This document shows positions 14,650 to 56,164 of a stretch of 64,000 nucleotides of DNA, piece by piece (the stretch's first letter is position 1; each line of letters begins with the position of its first letter). The stretch is from Streptomyces sp. NBC_01454 (lineage in GTDB: Bacteria; Actinomycetota; Actinomycetes; Streptomycetales; Streptomycetaceae). The notes beneath the pieces were generated by a model that was given only the letters and a program-made list of their open reading frames with translations, was not told where the DNA came from and did no database searches. Where the stretch lies: positions 3,348,001 through 3,412,000 of the forward strand of contig NZ_CP109460.1 of assembly GCF_036227565.1 (NCBI RefSeq). The letters run 5' to 3'. A program made the position numbers and the translations under genes.

Positions 14650-14820
14650 GGCCCCCGGCGCCCTGACCACGCGCAAACAACCCCCCGCAGCCGGAAACCC
14701 GCATCCACAGCTGCCCCGGTCGACCCGGCCCCGAACGACCGCCCCGCGCCGACACCCCCACAGACGTCAGAAGCCCCAGGCCATCCACCGGCCCGGGGCT
14801 TCGTCCCTGTTCAAGCTAAG

Positions 14821-48717: not shown

Positions 48718-50529
48718 ATGCCAGCGAGACCGCAACGGCGCCGCACCATCAGCAGATTGACGATCGGCGCCGCCGTACTGGCCGCGGCCGCCACGGTCAC
48801 CGCCGCCGCCCTGCCGGCCGGCGCCGACACCGGCCACGGCGCACACGCCGGCCGCACCGTCGAGGTGCAGCTGCTCTCCTTCAACGACTTCCACGGCAAC
48901 CTCGAACCGCCGCAGGGCTCCTCCGGCACCGTCGAGGAGCTCCAGCCGGACGGCAGCAAGAAGAACATCACGGCGGGCGGCGTCGAGTACCTCGCCCAGT
49001 CGCTGCGCACGGCCCGTAAGGGTCACCCCTACTCCGTCACCGCGGCGGCCGGCGACCTGGTCGGCGCCAGCCCGCTGCTGTCGGGGCTGTTCCACGACGA
49101 GCCGACCATCGAGGCGATGAACAAGCTGGGCCTCGACGTCACCTCCGTCGGCAACCACGAATTCGACGAGGGCCGGGCGGAACTGACGCGCCTGCAGAAC
49201 GGCGGCTGCCACCCCAAGGACGGCTGCTACGAGAAGGGCAAGAAGTTCCGGGGCGCCGGCTTCCCGTACCTCGCCGCCAACGTCACGGACGAGAAGAGCG
49301 GAAAGCCGCTGCTCAAGCCGTACACCGTCTGGAAGCACAAGGGCGTCAAAATCGGCTTCATCGGCGTGACGCTGGAGGGCACCCCGAACGTCGTCAGCGC
49401 CAACGGCGTCAAGGGCCTGAAGTTCCACGACGAGGTCGAGACGATCAACAAGTACGCCAAGGTCCTCAACCACCAGGGCGTGAAGGCGATCGTCGCCCTC
49501 ATCCACGAAGGCGGCCTGCCCGCCTCCACCTCGTACAACTACCACTGCGACAGCCCCGGCCCCGGTGACGGCATCTCCGGCCCGATCACCGACATCGCCA
49601 AGCACGTCACCCCGAAGGTCGACGCGCTGGTCACCGGCCACACCCACCAGGCCTACGCCTGCACCATCCCGGACCCCTCCGGCCGGCCCCGCACCGTCAC
49701 CTCCGCGGCGTCCTACGGCAAGCTCTACACCGACACCACGCTGACCTATGACCGCCGCACCCAGGACATCGTGCGCACCCGCGTCAAGGCGCCCGGCGCG
49801 GTCAACCACGTCGTCGACCGCACCCAGCCCAAGGCCGCGGACATGACGTCGCTGATCGCCCGCTGGAACAAGCTGGCCGCCCCGGTCGCGAACCGCCCCG
49901 TCGGCCACATCTCCGCCGACATCGCGGGCCGCGGCGCCGAGGCCCCCGAGTCACCGCTCGGCGACGTCATCTCCGACGCCCAGCTGGAGGCCACCAAGGC
50001 CGCCGACAAGGGCGGCGCCCAGCTCGCCCTGATGAACCCCGGCGGCATCCGCTCCGACCTCGCCTTCAAGGCCTCCGGCCCGGAGGGCGACGGCGTGGTC
50101 ACCTACGGCGAGGCGTTCACCGTCCAGCCCTTCACCAACATGATGAACGTCGTCGACCTCACCGGCGCCCAGCTCCTGACCGCACTCCAGCAGCAGGTCA
50201 GCGGCCCCAACGAGGCCTCCCCGAAGATCCTCCAGGTCTCCAGGGGCCTGACCTACACCCTGGACATGAAGAAGTCCGGCGCGGACCGCCTCGTCAAGGA
50301 CTCGGTGAAGCTGGACGGCACCGCCCTCGCCCCGGACAGGACCTACCGCGTCGCGATGAACGAGTTCCTGGCCGGCGGCGGCGACGGCTTCCCCGTCTTC
50401 AAGGACGCCAAGAACAAGTACGTCGGCCCCTCCGACCTGGACGCCCTCACCACCTACCTGACCGCACACTCCTCGGCATCCACCCCCCTGACCCCGCCGA
50501 AGGCGGACCGGATCACGGTGGTGAAGTAG
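48718..50529 (+). CDS. ushA: Secreted 5'-nucleotidase / metallophosphoesterase
   Basis: 603 residues, ATG after AGGAGGGG. A signal peptide (RRRTISRLTIGAAVLAAAATV, ending near LPAGADT) is followed by the calcineurin-like domain: VQLLSFNDFHGNLEP (Asp, His), AAGDLVGASPLLSG, TSVGNHEFDEG (Asn, His), IALIHEGG and VTGHTHQAY (His-x-His). The C-terminal 5'-nucleotidase domain has MNPGGIRSDL and AFTVQPFTNMMNVVDLTG. It releases phosphate from nucleotides outside the cell. Homologues are phosphate-starvation genes. The symbol is by homology. Confidence 0.92.
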   Translation: MPARPQRRRTISRLTIGAAVLAAAATVTAAALPAGADTGHGAHAGRTVEVQLLSFNDFHGNLEPPQGSSGTVEELQPDGSKKNITAGGVEYLAQSLRTARKGHPYSVTAAAGDLVGASPLLSGLFHDEPTIEAMNKLGLDVTSVGNHEFDEGRAELTRLQNGGCHPKDGCYEKGKKFRGAGFPYLAANVTDEKSGKPLLKPYTVWKHKGVKIGFIGVTLEGTPNVVSANGVKGLKFHDEVETINKYAKVLNHQGVKAIVALIHEGGLPASTSYNYHCDSPGPGDGISGPITDIAKHVTPKVDALVTGHTHQAYACTIPDPSGRPRTVTSAASYGKLYTDTTLTYDRRTQDIVRTRVKAPGAVNHVVDRTQPKAADMTSLIARWNKLAAPVANRPVGHISADIAGRGAEAPESPLGDVISDAQLEATKAADKGGAQLALMNPGGIRSDLAFKASGPEGDGVVTYGEAFTVQPFTNMMNVVDLTGAQLLTALQQQVSGPNEASPKILQVSRGLTYTLDMKKSGADRLVKDSVKLDGTALAPDRTYRVAMNEFLAGGGDGFPVFKDAKNKYVGPSDLDALTTYLTAHSSASTPLTPPKADRITVVK

Positions 50530-50603: not shown

Positions 50604-51422
50604 TCACGCGGTACAGACGAGCATTCCGCCAAGACACCCGATCTCGAACGCGCCGTTCCTCTCGATGTGCTCCGTCACGATCTCCCGGGCCCGCTCCACC
50701 GTCTCCTCGAACGGGACCGCATGCTGATCGGCCCACGCGCGATACGACTTCATGTGCGCGATGACCGGCTCGGGACTGCGCACGGCGATGGTTCCCGGCA
50801 GCTCAATCGTCTCGACCGTGCCGAACGCCGCGCCGAGCAGGTCCGATGCCCGCTCCAGTGGGAAGCGGGCACTCAGCGAAATCCTGGCCGGTCCCTTCTC
50901 CACACCGAGCACATCGCCCGCGGAACGCTCCCACAGACGGTCGAGTTCCGCTTTGTCCCGGGCACTGTTGGTGGACGCCACCACCACTCCGCCCGGTGTG
51001 ACGACTCGGGCGAGTTCCTTGATCGCCGCCGGAATGTCCTCGACGTGGTACAGCATGTGCAGGGCCAGCGCACCGTCGACACCCGCCGACGCCAACGGCA
51101 GGTGCGCGGCATCCGCAACAGCGACGGGACGCGGCACTCCGGCAAGGATGCCGAGCGAGACATCCAGACCGAGCAGCCGCAGGTCGGGCCGGTCCCGCCG
51201 CAGACGCTCGATGAACCTCCCGTTGCCGCATCCCACATCGACGACCGTGCCTCGCGTCCGCCGCAACCGCTCGACGACGATGCCCGGCAGGTCGTAACGC
51301 GGCGTTTGCCACTGATAGATCGACTGCCGGGCGGAGAGGTGCCGCCCGGTGTTGTAGGCACTCCCGGCAAGGATCGCGCGATCGGTCACGGCGGCGTCGT
51401 GCTCAGTCGAATGGTCGGTCAC
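50604..51422 (-). CDS. Class I SAM-dependent methyltransferase (accessory island)
   Basis: 272 residues; the GTG at 51422 lies one base after the stop of the upstream regulator, with GGAG ten nt before, so the two are one operon. TVVDVGCGNGRFIERLRRDRP is motif I, LLGLDVSLGIL motif II, VAVADAAHLPLASAGVDGALALHMLYHV motif III and LARVVTPGGVVVAST motif IV, all of the Methyltransf_11 type. The substrate could be the 40-residue peptide at 54172 or a small molecule; this is inference from context. Confidence 0.85.
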   Translation of the reverse strand: MTDHSTEHDAAVTDRAILAGSAYNTGRHLSARQSIYQWQTPRYDLPGIVVERLRRTRGTVVDVGCGNGRFIERLRRDRPDLRLLGLDVSLGILAGVPRPVAVADAAHLPLASAGVDGALALHMLYHVEDIPAAIKELARVVTPGGVVVASTNSARDKAELDRLWERSAGDVLGVEKGPARISLSARFPLERASDLLGAAFGTVETIELPGTIAVRSPEPVIAHMKSYRAWADQHAVPFEETVERAREIVTEHIERNGAFEIGCLGGMLVCTA

Positions 51423-51423
51423 G

Positions 51424-52776
51424 TCAGCGGCTCCGGGGAGTAGCGGCAGACGCTGCCGCGGGCACAGCAGCGTGCACAATGCGAGCACGCAGATGAGCAA
51501 TCTGCGGTGAGCCACGGTACTGCGCGGCTCCCAGCTCGTCGGCCAATGCTCCAAGCCGGTTGAGGATGCTGGCGGAAAGCTGCCCCGGCCCGGAGTCCAG
51601 AACCGCGCCCAGCAGCACCTCAGCCGCCTCGGTCTCCCCCGCGAGCATGCGCCCCCGAGCGAGGTCGAGGTTTGCGGCGAGCAGGTCGAACGTCGAGCGG
51701 TCGTCGGGTGCGGCTGCGTGGTACAGGTTGACTGCCGTCTCAGCGCAATCGATCGCCTGCCGCACATGTTTTGGGCCGCCAATTGCCAAGTGCATGGTTC
51801 CGGCGTACGTGAATTGCTTGGCGGTGGGGAAGCCGAAAACGCCGGGCATCATGTCCGGCCCCTTCATCGCGTCTCTGACCTTCTCGGCTGTCATCAGCGC
51901 CGCGACGGCGCCTTGTGCGTCACCGGCGACGGCGAGAGCCCTTGCCTCAAGACTCGCGAGCCGAACACCCACGCTCCCGTGGGCCACGTAGCGCTGACCG
52001 TGCTTGGCGAGGTCCGCCGCTCGCTGCGGGTTGCCATTCCAAAAGGCAATGAGCGACTCAACCGACCTGACCCAGGCTTGCATCTCGTGGTGCCCGGCAG
52101 CCTCCGCGCAGGACCAGGCAGCGCGCGCATGACTGCCCGCTGAGTCGTAGTCGCCGGCATCGAGGCAGACGTGGGCCGACAGACCGCACAGCCTGCTCGC
52201 GGCGACCAACAGGTCGGACGTCTGCTGTGGCCGTTGCCGCCCCCGCAGCAGATCGAACGTCTCGTCACGAAGCTCGCGAATCTCTGCGTACAGCTCCTTC
52301 AGCGGGCGGCTGACGAAGTGCCGAGCGAGCCGGGCAATATCCGCGTCGAGCTGTTCGACCGTGGTCTCATTCGAGTTCGTCGACGCGATGAACCGCGCGA
52401 ACCTCGCCGACCGCGCTGCGTCCGCGGCGAGCACACAGGCAGACGGAGGCACGGCTGCCCGCCCGGCAGCGGCCATTGCAGCCGTCGGAGCTGACCGGGC
52501 CGTCTTCCCGCATTCCTCTGCCTTGCGCCGCCGACTGGACGCATGGGCCTGATCCAACAGCGCCGGGTCGACACCGAACACCCGCGCCAGGATGCTGCGC
52601 GTTCTCTCGGAGGGCAGACGCACCTCGCGCTCGTATCTGCCGATTTCCTTGCCTGTCATCGTGGGCACAGCACTGCCCTCGACCTCGTTGAATTCCGCTG
52701 CGACCTTCGCCTGCGTCACCGATCCGCGAGCGTTGCGCAGCCGAACGAGCAGCTCCCCGATACCTGACTCGTTCAT
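51424..52776 (-). CDS. XRE regulator with TPR-like C-terminal domain
   Basis: 450 residues from the ATG at 52776. The HTH (ELLVRLRNARGSVTQAKVAAEFNEV, TGKEIGRYEREVRLPSERTRSIL) is followed by a linker and a 300-residue helical repeat domain (ELYAEIRELRDETFDLL, LLVAASRLCGLSAHVCLDAGDYDSA, HEMQAWVRSVESLIAFWNGNP). Regulators of this shape often accompany accessory biosynthetic islands in Streptomyces. Several stretches are less GC-rich than flanking core genes. It is divergent from the DUF6415-like gene and forms an operon with the methyltransferase. Confidence 0.85.
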   Translation of the reverse strand: MNESGIGELLVRLRNARGSVTQAKVAAEFNEVEGSAVPTMTGKEIGRYEREVRLPSERTRSILARVFGVDPALLDQAHASSRRRKAEECGKTARSAPTAAMAAAGRAAVPPSACVLAADAARSARFARFIASTNSNETTVEQLDADIARLARHFVSRPLKELYAEIRELRDETFDLLRGRQRPQQTSDLLVAASRLCGLSAHVCLDAGDYDSAGSHARAAWSCAEAAGHHEMQAWVRSVESLIAFWNGNPQRAADLAKHGQRYVAHGSVGVRLASLEARALAVAGDAQGAVAALMTAEKVRDAMKGPDMMPGVFGFPTAKQFTYAGTMHLAIGGPKHVRQAIDCAETAVNLYHAAAPDDRSTFDLLAANLDLARGRMLAGETEAAEVLLGAVLDSGPGQLSASILNRLGALADELGAAQYRGSPQIAHLRARIVHAAVPAAASAATPRSR

Positions 52777-52809
52777 CCCACCCCCCAGCACATCTGTACC
52801 GGCCCCCAT

Positions 52810-52831
52810 ATTGGCCCCCCAATTGGCTCCC
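52810..52831. promoter_or_regulatory. Direct repeat ATTGGC(C/T)CCC in the divergent promoter
   Basis: ATTGGCCCCC (52810-52819) and ATTGGCTCCC (52822-52831) are 12 bp apart in the 100-bp divergent spacer between the XRE gene and the DUF6415-like gene. Candidate operator for the XRE protein. Confidence 0.4.
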
Positions 52832-52876
52832 TTGCAGGCTCCCGACCCGAATGAGCGATGGCAGTTCACTGAAGTC

Positions 52877-53416
52877 ATGCCGTCACGAAACGTCAGTACT
52901 GCACCTACGCGGCCGACCCTGAGCGTCGGTACACCAAGCCCCTCGCTGCCTGGCCCTCCCGAACCTGGTCCGGACAGCCGCCGCCTGCCCGCGAATTCCC
53001 GCTCGGACAGGCGGTCGGCGACGGAAGGCTCCGCGGTGAAACCGCAACAACTGAAGTCGGCGGGTGAGGCACCCACAACGAGCCGCGACCGAAGGGCTCC
53101 CCTCGACCTCGACGCCATGCGGTACACGATCAGCCGCGCACGAGGTCAGAGCAGCGTGCCGCTCCGCTATGACGAGCTGACCGAGCTGGAGTCCGAACTC
53201 CGTGGCCACATCGAAAGGTTGCTGCCGACCACCCGCGAGGCTGTCGACAGGCTGTGGCACGGCGGGACTGTATGGCATCAGCAGATTTCCCGTCTGGACG
53301 GCATCGAGCGCCAGGTCGGACAGGGGCTGGGCACAGGTGTGCTCTCCGCACACGTGCAAGTGCAGCAGCTCGCGAAGGACTGCCAATGGCTCATCGACCA
53401 CCAGAGGCAGCAGTAA
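52877..53416 (+). CDS. DUF6415-like protein of the accessory island
   Basis: 179 residues from the ATG at 52877; a later GTG near 53034 is possible because the first 60 residues are disordered (PTRPTLSVGTPSPSLPGPPE). The C-terminal 100 residues are helical: DLDAMRYTISRARG, DELTELESELRGHIERLLPTT, EAVDRLWHGGTVWHQQISRLD, HVQVQQLAKDCQWLIDHQR. This looks like the Streptomyces DUF6415 family, which databases associate with natural-product loci; my recognition is moderate. The stop overlaps the next ATG (TAATG), so the two are coupled. Confidence 0.65.
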   Translation: MPSRNVSTAPTRPTLSVGTPSPSLPGPPEPGPDSRRLPANSRSDRRSATEGSAVKPQQLKSAGEAPTTSRDRRAPLDLDAMRYTISRARGQSSVPLRYDELTELESELRGHIERLLPTTREAVDRLWHGGTVWHQQISRLDGIERQVGQGLGTGVLSAHVQVQQLAKDCQWLIDHQRQQ

Positions 53417-54015
53417 TGGCTGACCGGTCAGGGCCGCACCTGCCGAAGGTCGCCCCCGATCGGAGGCAGCGACCGCCACACAAGTCGTGGCTCCCGCCCT
53501 CGGGGGCCCAGGTGATCCCCGTGCGGATCGGTCCGATCCTGGACGTGGTCGAAGCCCCCGACATCATCGGCAAGGCAATGCTCGCCCTGGGGACCACTCC
53601 TGTCCCGCACATCGTCACCCCTGATGACGGCACGGTTCACTGGCTGCTGCCGCATCGCGCCGCCCGCCATCGTCCCTGGCCGTGGGCTCGCATCTCCCGA
53701 TATGTCAGGGTCCTCACGGGTCTTGAGGAGTTCGGCATACCCGGAAGCTGCCTCACCGGCGGGCCCGGCCCGCACTGGGCGTATCCGGATGGCTGGGTCG
53801 GCAGCCACCTCGCTGATGAGTGGCTCGTGGAAGACCTCGCCGTTTGCACCCTCGACCACCTCGGACAGCCGGCGCAGCGCTGCGAACTGTGCCCCGAACC
53901 CCTGTGGCCCGAGGACGGCGTTCGTGTCGTTCTCCCCCGCTCTCCCTCGCGGACACTCCCCCGTGCCACCGTCCGCGTCCACGCACATTGCGCCCGGGCA
54001 CAGGGCTTCACGTGA
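53416..54015 (+). CDS. Hypothetical protein with Cys pair and His/Cys tail
   Basis: 199 residues; the ATG overlaps the upstream stop. No family recognised. It is rich in Pro, Trp and His (HKSWLPPSGAQVIPVRIGP, VHWLLPHRAARHRPWPWARISRYV). Near the C-terminus CELCPEPLWPEDGVRVVLPR and, 40 residues on, HAHCARAQ could form a zinc ribbon (Cys-x2-Cys and His-x-His-Cys). No signal peptide. As part of the same transcription unit it may be an accessory or recognition protein for the peptide downstream; unproven. Confidence 0.65.
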   Translation: MADRSGPHLPKVAPDRRQRPPHKSWLPPSGAQVIPVRIGPILDVVEAPDIIGKAMLALGTTPVPHIVTPDDGTVHWLLPHRAARHRPWPWARISRYVRVLTGLEEFGIPGSCLTGGPGPHWAYPDGWVGSHLADEWLVEDLAVCTLDHLGQPAQRCELCPEPLWPEDGVRVVLPRSPSRTLPRATVRVHAHCARAQGFT

Positions 54016-54171
54016 CCGTCGCCGAGCCCGGAGGACCTGGAGGGGGCGGGGCGAAACCCGCCGCGATGGATCACGTCCCTGAGACGGCCCGTGCCCCACC
54101 GGTGCGGGCCGGCGACTGCACGACGGGGCGGGGAGAGTCCCCGAACCGCACAACGTGAGGAGGTAAGAGTC

Positions 54172-54294
54172 ATGACACTCAAGGAAGCACTGAAACGCGC
54201 AGGAACCGTTCGCGGCGGTGACGAGGACGACGACGGCGGGGGCGGCAACCCGCCGACGGGCGACTCCGACGACGGGCGCGACTACCTGTGCTGA
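54172..54294 (+). CDS. 40-residue acidic peptide with GG motif and C-terminal Cys (putative precursor)
   Basis: ATG at 54172 with AGGAGG nine nt upstream, one of the strongest ribosome-binding sites in the window. The N-terminal part MTLKEALKRAGTVRGG is a basic amphipathic helix ending in a double glycine. The rest is very acidic and Gly-rich (DEDDDGGGGNPPTGDSDD) and ends GRDYLC. The layout resembles a RiPP leader plus core with a GG cleavage site and a modifiable Thr/Ser/Tyr/Cys. A hairpin separates it from the kinase gene. No family known to me. Confidence 0.7.
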   Translation: MTLKEALKRAGTVRGGDEDDDGGGGNPPTGDSDDGRDYLC

Positions 54295-54319
54295 CCGGCA
54301 GTAGTCTCCCCTGACCTGT

Positions 54320-54352
54320 GGGGCCGACCGTCTGACACAGGTGGTCGGCCCC
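54320..54352 (+). terminator. Hairpin (attenuator) between the small peptide and the kinase
   Basis: GGGGCCGACC (54320-54329) pairs with GGTCGGCCCC (54343-54352) around a 13-nt loop, 25 bp after the peptide stop. No U-tail, so partial termination is likely. Confidence 0.6.
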
Positions 54353-54373
54353 TGCCGCCGAGAGGACTTCACC

Positions 54374-55204
54374 ATGCCCAGCCAAGGACCATTCGATCTC
54401 CCTGGCCACGTGCAACGAGTTGTCACTCCCCTGAGCAAGCGACTCGTCATCAACCGGCGCGGCTCGACCGTCTGGGACGTACGCGCTCCCGACGGCCGAT
54501 TCGCCGTCAAGCTGGGCTATCCCAGCCGGACACATGCATGGACGGCGTGGGCCCCCGCCCGGGAAGCCGCCATCCTTCGCCAGCTCATCCCCGAGGAAGT
54601 GTGGTCCGGAGAATGGGAGGAAGGCACGTGGAGCGCGCAGCCGTGGCGCGAGGGCCAATCGCTCCACGACCTGTGGGAGCCCCATCGACGGGCGAAGGAA
54701 CCCGCGGCCCCTTCGCACGGGGACGCGCTTTCATGTGCGGCCGCACTGGCCAAGCTGCATCAGGGCGGATGGGCGCACGGCGACGTCCAGCCCAACCACT
54801 TCGTCCTCGGACCCACCGGAACCTTCCTCATCGATCTGGCTCTGGCACATGGCGGCGAGGTCCCCGAAAGCCACGACTTCCGATACCGGGGATGTCTGGT
54901 CCACTACGAAGCGCCGGAGATCTCGCGGAGCATCTTGGAGAGCGGCACCGCCGTGCCGACGAAGGAGGCTGACGTCTACGCACTGGGCGCTTCCCTGTTC
55001 CTCTCCGCCACCGGCTTCAGGCACGTCTCCTACCCGGACGACGCCAGCCGGGGAGACCAGCGGCAAGCCATCGTGGACAAGCCGCACCGGCCGGTCAACG
55101 TGCCGGGCCCGCTGGGCACACTCATGGAGCAGATGATGAGCCGCAATCCGGCCGACCGGCCGAGCAGTGCAGAGGTCTGCCGGGAACTGCGCGGGGCACC
55201 CTGA
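54374..55204 (+). CDS. Stand-alone protein-kinase-fold enzyme of the accessory island
   Basis: 276 residues, ATG after GAGAGGA. Kinase landmarks: FAVKLGYP (ATP-binding Lys), REAAILRQL (helix C Glu), GWAHGDVQPNHFVL (catalytic loop, HGD in place of HRD, with Asn replaced by His two residues after Pro-Asn), FLIDLALAHGG (Asp of DFG kept as IDL), VHYEAPEIS (APE) and EADVYALGASLFLSATG (helix F Asp). It has no transmembrane or sensor domain. It may phosphorylate Ser/Thr of the neighbouring peptide or of a regulator; inference only. Confidence 0.8.
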   Translation: MPSQGPFDLPGHVQRVVTPLSKRLVINRRGSTVWDVRAPDGRFAVKLGYPSRTHAWTAWAPAREAAILRQLIPEEVWSGEWEEGTWSAQPWREGQSLHDLWEPHRRAKEPAAPSHGDALSCAAALAKLHQGGWAHGDVQPNHFVLGPTGTFLIDLALAHGGEVPESHDFRYRGCLVHYEAPEISRSILESGTAVPTKEADVYALGASLFLSATGFRHVSYPDDASRGDQRQAIVDKPHRPVNVPGPLGTLMEQMMSRNPADRPSSAEVCRELRGAP

Positions 55205-55282
55205 GCCCCTATACGCCGGCCATCCACGCTCCGCGAGCAGGGGGCACCGCCGCCCCTCCCGGAGCACACGGCGCCCCGCCCC

Positions 55283-56164
55283 TCAGGAAAAGTCCGCCAC
55301 GTGGTCCCGGGCCCACTCGGCGTACGTCCGGCCCGGATGCCCGGTGACGCGTTCCACGGCGTCCGAGACGGGGAACGACGGCGCGTCGACCATCTTGCCG
55401 AACAGCCCGACCAGTTCCCGTGCGGCCTCCAGCGGCAGATGCGGCCCGGCCATCGCCTCGGCCGCCGCCTCCTCGGAGATCTGCTCGACCCGCGTCTCGC
55501 GCCCGGTCGCCCGGCCGATCTCGGCGACCTGCTGCGCCACGGTCAGCACCTCCGGGCCGGTGACGAGGTACGCCTGACCCTGATGCGTGCCGCTGCGGTC
55601 CAGCAGGGCGACCGCGGCGACGTCGGCGAGGTCGGCCTCGTGCACGGGCGTGCCCTGGGCGCCGGGGTGTGCCTCGCGCACCACGCCGGACGTACGGATC
55701 GACGGGGCCCAGGCGAGGGTGTTGGTGGAGTAGTTGCTGCCGCGGAGGAAGGTCCATTCCAGGCCGGAGTCGCGCACCGTGCGCTCCAGGGCGGCGTGCA
55801 TGCGGGCGATGTGGTTCGAGTCGTCGGCGGGGGTGCCGGTCACCGCCATCGAGGAGTTGAGGACGATCCGGCGGACGCCGGCCGCGACGGCGGCGTCGAC
55901 CAGCGCCGTCACGGCCCGGTCGCCGCCGGCCGCCAGGTTGAGGAACAGCGCGTCGGCGCCGGCCAGCAGCGGTGCGAGGTCCGGTGTGCCGGTGAGGTCG
56001 GCGCGGACCGCCTCGGCGCCGGCCGGCAGAGCGGCGCGCGCCGGATCGCGGGTCAGCGCGCGCACGGCGGCGCCGTCCGCGAGGAGCCGGCCGACAAGGC
56101 AGCGGCCGATGTTTCCGGTGGCCCCGGTGACCACGATCACGGGGGCGCGTTCAGGAGAGTTCAT
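55283..56164 (-). CDS. NmrA-type NAD(P)-binding oxidoreductase
   Basis: 293 residues, ATG at 56164. VIVVTGATGNIGRCLVGRLL is the Rossmann glycine motif of atypical SDRs (GxxGxxG). LFLNLAAGGDRAVTALVDAA and IVLNSSMAVTG continue the fold, and EWTFLRGSNYSTNTLAW is typical of QOR2/NmrA-like proteins. The SDR YxxxK pair is absent, consistent with a redox sensor or a quinone reductase-like role. Upstream lies a heptamer repeat and no strong ribosome-binding site. Confidence 0.87.
   Translation of the reverse strand: MNSPERAPVIVVTGATGNIGRCLVGRLLADGAAVRALTRDPARAALPAGAEAVRADLTGTPDLAPLLAGADALFLNLAAGGDRAVTALVDAAVAAGVRRIVLNSSMAVTGTPADDSNHIARMHAALERTVRDSGLEWTFLRGSNYSTNTLAWAPSIRTSGVVREAHPGAQGTPVHEADLADVAAVALLDRSGTHQGQAYLVTGPEVLTVAQQVAEIGRATGRETRVEQISEEAAAEAMAGPHLPLEAARELVGLFGKMVDAPSFPVSDAVERVTGHPGRTYAEWARDHVADFS

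Follow-up and report, generated by a model that had tools for sequence, protein, structure and literature searches.

We analysed a 64,000-nucleotide (nt) stretch of the Streptomyces sp. NBC_01454 genome (contig NZ_CP109460.1; this whole stretch is called the window) and examined in it a six-gene island that contains the gene of a 40-amino-acid (aa) peptide followed by the gene of a Hanks-type protein kinase. We found that the conserved unit of the island consists of these two genes. The pair very probably represents a modular family of small cassettes, in which the N-terminal module of the peptide, the core and the downstream partner are exchanged. Feature positions are collected in Table 1, and loci in other genomes are cited by number (L039 and so on) where they have to be told apart.

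The peptide open reading frame (ORF) is more than a chance frame. A search of 5.8 billion proteins (E-value up to 1) returned 49 entries, the query included, and 48 of the 49 shared NPPTG; the pattern D.D.GR.Y and the GG ahead of the acidic linker were each present in 48 as well. The N-terminal part differed among homologues in both sequence and length. Judged by this alignment, the conserved element is the C-terminal D-x-D-x-G-R-x-Y (NPPTGDSDDGRDY in the window, hereafter core 1), and variation is concentrated in the leader. The final Cys, which an earlier note on this DNA had listed among the hallmarks of a peptide precursor, was found in 3 of the 49 homologues and is strain-specific. At the DNA level, the 13-codon core was represented by 19 different versions at 22 loci, with Ser encoded by both TCN and AGY and codons varying synonymously. 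The ratio of nonsynonymous to synonymous polymorphism (pN/pS) over the 19 different cores was 0.18, a value biased low because many of the cores were found via a protein pattern, and Ser was replaced by Gly in 2 of the 19. The window genome (9.46 Mb) contained one peptide match at E up to 0.001, and its seven other GDEDD-type sites were all inside long frames. With the same threshold, 11 of 392 genomes of the genus had a match, own genome included. The pattern PPTGDSDDGR was recovered in 10 stretches from species genomes and in 5 from virus contigs; the named records with the peptide core were nine Streptomyces (one of them a metagenome-assembled genome, MAG) and one Streptantibioticus. The peptide (P0001; its consensus for the phages) was absent from the plasmid and phage collections.

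A close kinase (61–79% identity) was present in 8 out of the 10 genome records with the peptide core and in none of the 5 virus records, and it lay directly 3' of the peptide in all 12 kinase-bearing peptide loci that were read, window included. A kinase-first search (E up to 1e-50) identified 72 places in 69 of the 392 genomes. Five of these places were already known as peptide loci, and 60 of the other 67 were fetched (6 of the 7 omitted were partial matches). We counted as a tail any ORF upstream of the kinase that ended in D.D.GR.Y with fewer than 12 residues after the motif. Such an ORF lay just upstream of the kinase in 56 of the 60 kinase-chosen loci (68 of 72 once the 12 peptide-chosen loci are counted in), compared with 0 of 300 control genes from the same stretches; a stricter script, run on loci and controls alike, recovered 55 of the 60. 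Conservation of the peptide frame beside the kinase, which the earlier note had set in advance as one point on which its proposal should stand or fall, was thus found. Among 55 aligned tails, Ser was present in 50 and Ala in 5, the first Cys in 51, the second Cys in 50, and Pro in 47 against Asp in 8. Ser was replaced by Ala in 6 of the 68 kinase-linked tails, and Tyr was the sole hydroxyl residue common to all 68 motifs. Between 0 and 6 residues separated the motif from the stop codon, and the spacing to the partner gene was about 20–125 nt (79 nt from peptide stop to kinase start in the window). A stem-loop preceded the next gene in the 24 loci that were folded; the one in the window was negative in terminator scoring. 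In the kinase, K46, E64 and D154 were invariant and D137 was conserved at 90% or more over 68 sequences (roles assigned by eye). The kinase profile matched canonical kinases in the PDB, the predicted model had a mean predicted local distance difference test score (pLDDT) of 93.9, and the kinase was not found on PLSDB plasmids.

The other genes of the window region behaved differently from the pair. At an E-value of 1e-3, the methyltransferase, the NsdA-type regulator, the CxxC protein, the nucleotidase and LmeA had no match in 25 other stretches, nearly all of which were peptide loci (L078 was not one, and in L053 the peptide did not turn up a second time); a few loci were present twice in this set (e.g. 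L039 and L050), and some stretches had just 2–8 kilobases (kb). Of 84 tail loci, 6 (the window, L043, L051, L045, L174 and L177) had a DUF6415 gene no more than 4 kb upstream, as detected with a profile built from the window, L043 and L051 proteins; L045 is near-identical to L043. It recurs more than the other island genes, yet it is no fixed part of the cassette. The earlier note had joined all six genes into one system, a proposal that these counts do not bear out. We also observed DUF6415 upstream of tail peptides with other partners; it may belong to the regulation of some cassettes.

The N-terminal module was not limited to short leaders. Clustering of neighbours placed a protein of about 150 aa before the kinase in 55 of the 72 kinase loci. 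These proteins form what we call the HHNP family, with about 130 N-terminal residues that carry VDxxxH...T..Y....HHNP and a tail of CDSDCGRPYGQA or similar. The HHNP domain was without a Pfam match, and its best PDB profile match (E 0.24) was not significant. A GRDP/DUF1399-like identity was considered for it and dropped, Pfam scans being without such a match. In five loci two tail motifs stood in tandem, one of the CDSDCGRPY type and then GG-acidic-NPPTGDSDDGRDY or a variant of it, and in one of these (L074) the HHNP frame was interrupted. By analogy, such tandem tails may be likened to a multi-core precursor. In the kinase tree the window fell in a supported set of 10 sequences (100/99), where 7 forms with short peptides were interleaved with 3 tandem forms of the HHNP type, so that the N-terminal domain appears to have come and gone while the core and the kinase stayed. 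The bootstrap of this tree had not fully settled, the fork between the window and the nearest tandem form was weak (87/8), and the label L114 in it is wrong.

We found three further partners besides the kinase (partner A). Core 1 preceded partner B in L040, L042–L045 and L050–L052. Partner B has about 150 aa and carries RVTIFPLLHDWE; it had 219 homologues and a model pLDDT of 91.9. In Pfam and NCBIfam nothing matched it above cut-off, and in the PDB no profile match was significant. One of its homologues (P0226) comes, according to its record, from a 5-kb contig of a Sinomonas MAG, where transfer or a binning error is possible. Partner C (121–170 aa, HWHAFAWTG) followed core 1 in L049, L055 and L174–L177, and in L179 it followed an HHNP domain with CDGDDGRDY. 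It also had no Pfam or NCBIfam match above cut-off (one antitoxin match was sub-threshold, 11.2 bits) and no significant PDB profile match, and profile comparison showed no relationship between B and C. Partner D (249 aa, LAVDWDFFF...HHDAGY, no Pfam match) was located at 1540–2289 of virus contig L256, behind a peptide with almost the same leader as in the window. Beyond it, a long ORF on the opposite strand reads like an amidase or endolysin, as judged from its sequence.

Further searches started from B and from C. The B-first search returned 22 matches in 14 of 256 genomes, and an acidic Gly-rich ORF end lay just upstream in 15 of the 22 (14 of 21 places, L212 and L214 being one place). Most of these upstream ORFs carried a third core, DNTDIEDGDGGGGNPSPGHR, or encoded HHNP proteins, CGDTCGDDGGGGNP being one example of their tails. 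The C-first search had matches in 91 of the 256 genomes, and 30 loci were read: 9 passed the acidic/Gly-rich test and two more (L237 and L244) were added by eye, mostly with a second core, GGCGDGDGCGR. Because the remaining C loci fail the test, C also lives without such a peptide. The test was passed by 1 of 350 control genes. Taken alone it detected 15 of the 60 kinase loci, because the CDSDCGRPY tail is too poor in acidic residues, and the motif test is the right one there.

Leaders, cores and partners occurred in several combinations. LKEAL-type leaders carried core 1 before A (in the window) and before B, core 2 (GGCGDGDGCGRK) before C in virus contig L253, and core 3 (DNTDIEDGDG) before B in virus contig L254 and before D in L256. 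Similarly, the MRYRLD leader carried core 1 before B (L051) and core 2, again as GGCGDGDGCGRK, before C (L247). Before one and the same partner, B or C, cores 1, 2 and 3 also took each other's place. Leaders and cores thus exchange independently, as expected of the gene-encoded precursors, with separable leader and core, of ribosomally synthesized and post-translationally modified peptides (RiPPs). The RiPP-precursor look described by the earlier note holds in this respect: a leader that can be swapped and a linker are followed by a core that is conserved. Conservation lies in the C-terminal tail, and not in the GG leader or the final Cys. Finally, the window genome has a second cassette, in which MRFRLDPVKYGGDEDDDQGGSPNGGCGDGQGCGRQ precedes a C-type gene; it lies some 79 kb ahead of the start of the window.

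A DNA pattern for the tail motif was present in 113 of the 392 genomes, and many of its sites were those before kinases. We read 20 sites that had no known kinase behind them. Five were located before partner C (L174–L177 and L179), two belonged to HHNP proteins for which no partner was read (L172, and L183 at a contig end), and one (L184) lay before a short kinase-like ORF. The other 12, among them a second site in the window genome (L186), seemed due to chance or were ambiguous, most of them inside long frames. The HHNP protein of L172 (3562–4074 of the reverse complement) has CDSDCGRPY followed by an acidic extension, with no family kinase seen behind it.

Integrative elements of a pSAM2-like kind and Streptomyces virus contigs harbour some of the cassettes. 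We clustered the neighbours within 6.5 kb of the 72 kinase loci and read the clusters by eye. At least one gene of the SCO3933-family, TraSA-position, DUF2637 or RepSA type was present in 14 of the 72; in another 27 the only genes from these clusters were Nudix or XRE, and 31, the window among them, had none. The SCO3933 match scored 84.5 bits (cut-off 80) and the RepSA match had an E-value of 4.5e-45, and the TraSA-position gene (472 aa) was named by its position, its N-terminal piece being without a Pfam match. The accessible part of one paper assigns SCO3933 (Pra-like), SCO3934 (TraSA-like) and SCO3936 (RepSA-like) to a pSAM2-like remnant (PMC8584621). In the accessible part of another, Nudix genes are common in pSAM2-type elements, and Pif of pSAM2, a Nudix protein, confers conjugal immunity (PMC3218068). 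The cassettes resemble the layout of such elements in that they lie upstream of SCO3933-family (Pra-type), DUF2637 and/or RepSA genes in those 14 loci, often with a Nudix gene before; they differ from them in that the peptide, the HHNP proteins and the partners are cargo that the accessible parts of these papers do not name. No genes of this kind adjoin the window copy, and no mobile-type neighbour was found at 40–64 kb of the window. The peptide and partners B, C and D were all absent from the named phage collection.

From this conservation and modularity, which we observed directly, we infer an action of the kinase on the peptide, its site, an excess of peptide and a purpose. We tentatively prefer the explanation that the cassette works as a precursor–enzyme pair. 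The D-x-D-x-G-R-x-Y tail would be the working end of the peptide, presented by the N-terminal module (short helix or HHNP domain), and the stem-loop might help to keep the peptide in excess over the kinase. The kinase would bind and then phosphorylate the tail protein. If the tail is the substrate, the Tyr of GR-x-Y is the predicted common acceptor, because it is the only hydroxyl residue shared by all kinase-linked motifs, and the Ser of D-S-D is a candidate second site where present. The marked peptide would then serve the mobile element in exclusion, competition or host control, and its release, if any, would proceed via a host protease. In favour of this explanation are the tail counts ahead of the kinase and in control genes, the kinase tree, the tandem tails, the different cores behind one leader type, the conserved catalytic residues, the LanL match of the kinase and the pSAM2-type genes near 14 of the 72 kinase loci. 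Lanthipeptide-type chemistry is unlikely, as there is no Ser, Thr or Cys that all tails share. We rejected lanthionine formation as a candidate, given that Ser is not invariant and that the two Cys of CDSDCGRPY, neither of which is invariant, are absent from core 1; the phosphorylation–elimination chemistry raised by the earlier note fails as a common logic for the same residues and the Ser replacements by Ala and Gly reported above. A wider and rather doubtful proposal is a new class of peptide system of actinomycete mobile elements, in which one exchangeable chassis (a leader helix or an HHNP domain, with the acidic GG linker) would supply at least three cores to at least four partners (A–D). 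The elements would exchange cores and enzymes independently of each other and so produce different small signals or weapons, and the kinase version would mark the tail Tyr with no Ser/Thr–Cys chemistry.

Several observations weigh against the precursor–enzyme explanation. The tail is not kinase-specific, because core 1 also precedes B and C, and a conserved core with a variable leader is the reverse of most RiPPs. Reading by eye of the neighbour clusters from at least 5 loci turned up neither a protease or transporter nor a lyase or any other RiPP enzyme. Four of the 60 kinase loci had no intact tail gene (L129, L151, L161 and L166), although L151 kept a remnant, SDCGRPYGQA, in a disrupted frame. 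The invariance of D, D, G, R and Y is by construction, because the motif itself required these residues. The stem-loop signal was modest over 63 loci (median z −1.8; 28 below −2). Finally, H142 is invariant at the position where the catalytic-loop Asn is expected, according to an alignment to the canonical loop made by eye, and since His replaces Asn, the kinase is likely, not certain, to be active. We also noticed that a different small protein (TYRLECVHED...) precedes the kinase in L161 and L166, perhaps as a further module.

The main rival, which is possible and no better than that, takes the tail for a docking tag that is read by a conserved host protein and is not a substrate of the partner; the small protein would then recruit or restrain an effector (kinase, B, C or D) in exclusion, defence or host control. 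The same tail stands before three partner types (A, B and C), so it may be read by something besides the partner. Some cassettes lie among pSAM2-like genes that include Nudix, the family of Pif and its conjugal immunity (accessible part of PMC3218068), and the kinase has distant PADLOC matches, the best to PD-T4-6 (39.9 bits). These PADLOC matches are weak and expected of any Hanks kinase, no host receptor was identified among the loci studied, and the interchange of cores 1, 2 and 3 before the same B or C speaks against a docking tag.

A toxin–antitoxin system, with the kinase (or B, C or D) as toxin and the small acidic protein as antitoxin on mobile DNA, is improbable. It would agree with two-gene units in which the small gene comes first, with a short acidic peptide and with the location of some units on mobile elements. 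Antitoxins are as a rule toxin-specific, however, and core 1 serves three partner types; moreover, the genes are some 20–125 nt apart with a stem-loop in the loci folded, and no such Pfam or NCBIfam family was found above cut-off for the peptide, the kinase, B, C or the HHNP-tail protein. We give still less credence to an attenuator, in which the small ORF would act as an upstream ORF with a regulatory role: ribosomes would stall at its C-terminus and, together with the stem-loop, this would control the next gene. The conserved C-terminus near the stop, the stem-loop before the next gene and the several unlike downstream genes would suit such a device, but in 55 of the 72 kinase loci the ORF is an HHNP protein of about 150 aa, the three cores are unlike, the distance from motif to stop varies, and the stem-loop is only modestly better than shuffles. 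A six-gene RiPP cluster, in which the methyltransferase, the kinase and the regulators would all act on the peptide, has in its favour that the genes adjoin each other in the window and is highly improbable, already disfavoured by the missing matches and the sparse DUF6415 recurrence described above.

In class IV and III lanthipeptide systems (LanL and LanKC), the LanL precursor gene lies ahead of the enzyme gene. LanL was the top NCBIfam match of the window kinase, at 57.7 bits against a cut-off of 650. The window kinase differs from these enzymes in being stand-alone (276 aa) with no lyase or cyclase part, and in the tail no Ser, Thr or Cys position is invariant. Class V-type and kintamdin chemistry requires Ser/Thr and Cys. 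The likeness to these systems is a stand-alone kinase-like protein for a precursor peptide, the action of the kinase on the peptide being conjectural in our case; the accessible part of the kintamdin paper describes the KinD kinase with the HopA1-like lyase KinC, and KinH, an inactive kinase homologue, with KinI (PMC9415263). No HopA1-like lyase or HFCD flavoprotein was detected in the six window proteins with Pfam and NCBIfam, and none was seen by eye among the recurrent neighbours. The same held for a lyase or cyclase alongside the kinase (six window proteins; neighbours of the 72 loci by eye only) and for a C39-type protease or transporter (six window proteins; neighbour clusters by eye), and no recognised RiPP-class enzyme was adjacent, the kinase having a weak LanL likeness only. 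With Hanks-type Ser/Thr kinases the window kinase shares the fold, the Lys, the Glu, the HxD Asp and the DFG-type Asp (roles by eye), and it differs in its size (276 aa), in having a kinase domain only by Pfam, in the His at the place of the catalytic-loop Asn, and in being tied to a peptide gene.

The architecture as read from the genes is RiPP-like, with shared leaders, swapped cores and a putative enzyme-type partner. PHROGs, Pfam and NCBIfam had no above-cut-off match for the peptide, the HHNP proteins, B or C, and searches of the openly accessible literature found no paper on the cassette family or with the three tail strings (closed journals were outside this scope). The only DUF6415 paper found there concerns, to judge by its title, peptidase inhibitors of spiders. 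The swappable small-peptide cassette family is apparently undescribed. A single 40-codon ORF thereby leads to a family with clear rules of module, core and partner. Should the pairs yield modified peptides, these would escape searches keyed to known RiPP enzymes; should the pairs instead act in exclusion or signalling, they open to testing the cargo that integrative elements of Streptomyces carry.

Table 1. Features of the island in the window, and the partner gene of the second cassette in the same genome.
Feature	Position	Strand	Description
Methyltransferase	50604-51422	minus	272 aa; Methyltransf_11, E 7e-16
XRE/TPR regulator, NsdA-type	51424-52776	minus	450 aa from the start chosen (longer starts exist); NCBIfam NsdA_fam_reg 123.9 bits, cut-off 75
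DUF6415 domain	~53117-53401, frame end 53416	plus	Pfam PF19979, 69 bits; start codon ambiguous
CxxC protein	53416-54015	plus	199 aa; no Pfam or NCBIfam match
Ribosome-binding site of the peptide, GAGGAGG	54157-54163	plus	Direct sequence reading
Leader-core peptide gene, MTLKEALKRAGTVRGGDEDDDGGGGNPPTGDSDDGRDYLC	54172-54294	plus	40 aa; 49 protein-search entries including itself
Leader, residues 1-16, MTLKEALKRAGTVRGG; swappable N-terminal module	54172-54219	plus	Varies among homologues; other leaders or HHNP domain in its place
Acidic Gly-rich linker DEDDDGGGG	54220-54246	plus	Peptides with other cores have comparable linkers
Conserved core/tail NPPTGDSDDGRDY (core 1), generic D-x-D-x-G-R-x-Y	54247-54285	plus	Homologue alignment
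Strong stem-loop without a T run, in the gap from peptide to kinase	54320-54352	plus	54295-54373 folds at −38.3 kcal/mol, z −2.3
Hanks-type protein kinase (partner A)	54374-55204	plus	276 aa; Pfam Pkinase 32.3 bits, cut-off 31.7
C-type partner, second cassette (L259)	3269017-3269379 of own genome	minus	Outside the window

All six genes predicted by the earlier note were present in the island, together with the 1-nt gap between the methyltransferase and regulator genes, the TAATG overlap of the DUF6415 frame with the CxxC gene, and the GAGGAGG site. No sigma-70-type promoter or T-tailed terminator was detected at 52700–55300, and Rfam gave sub-threshold matches only. The guanine-cytosine content of the island was just slightly low at 0.66–0.70, with flanks partly up to 0.75 and the adjacent nucleotidase at 0.69–0.71. 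A codon-based gene caller trained on the flanks and on relatives returned the methyltransferase and the peptide whole, cut two island genes and missed the other two. There are thus hints, from the poor result on 4 of the 6 genes, that the island was acquired recently from a foreign source. No tRNA lies near the island, the sole one of the window being at 14820. A search with LmeA for an empty site in 26 genomes matched 7 of them, own genome included, the others at 45–61% identity. Finally, a perfect 17-nt direct repeat flanks the island, with one copy in the nucleotidase gene (50277–50293) and the other in a reductase-like gene (55999–56015), which may be due to chance or may be the trace of an insertion.

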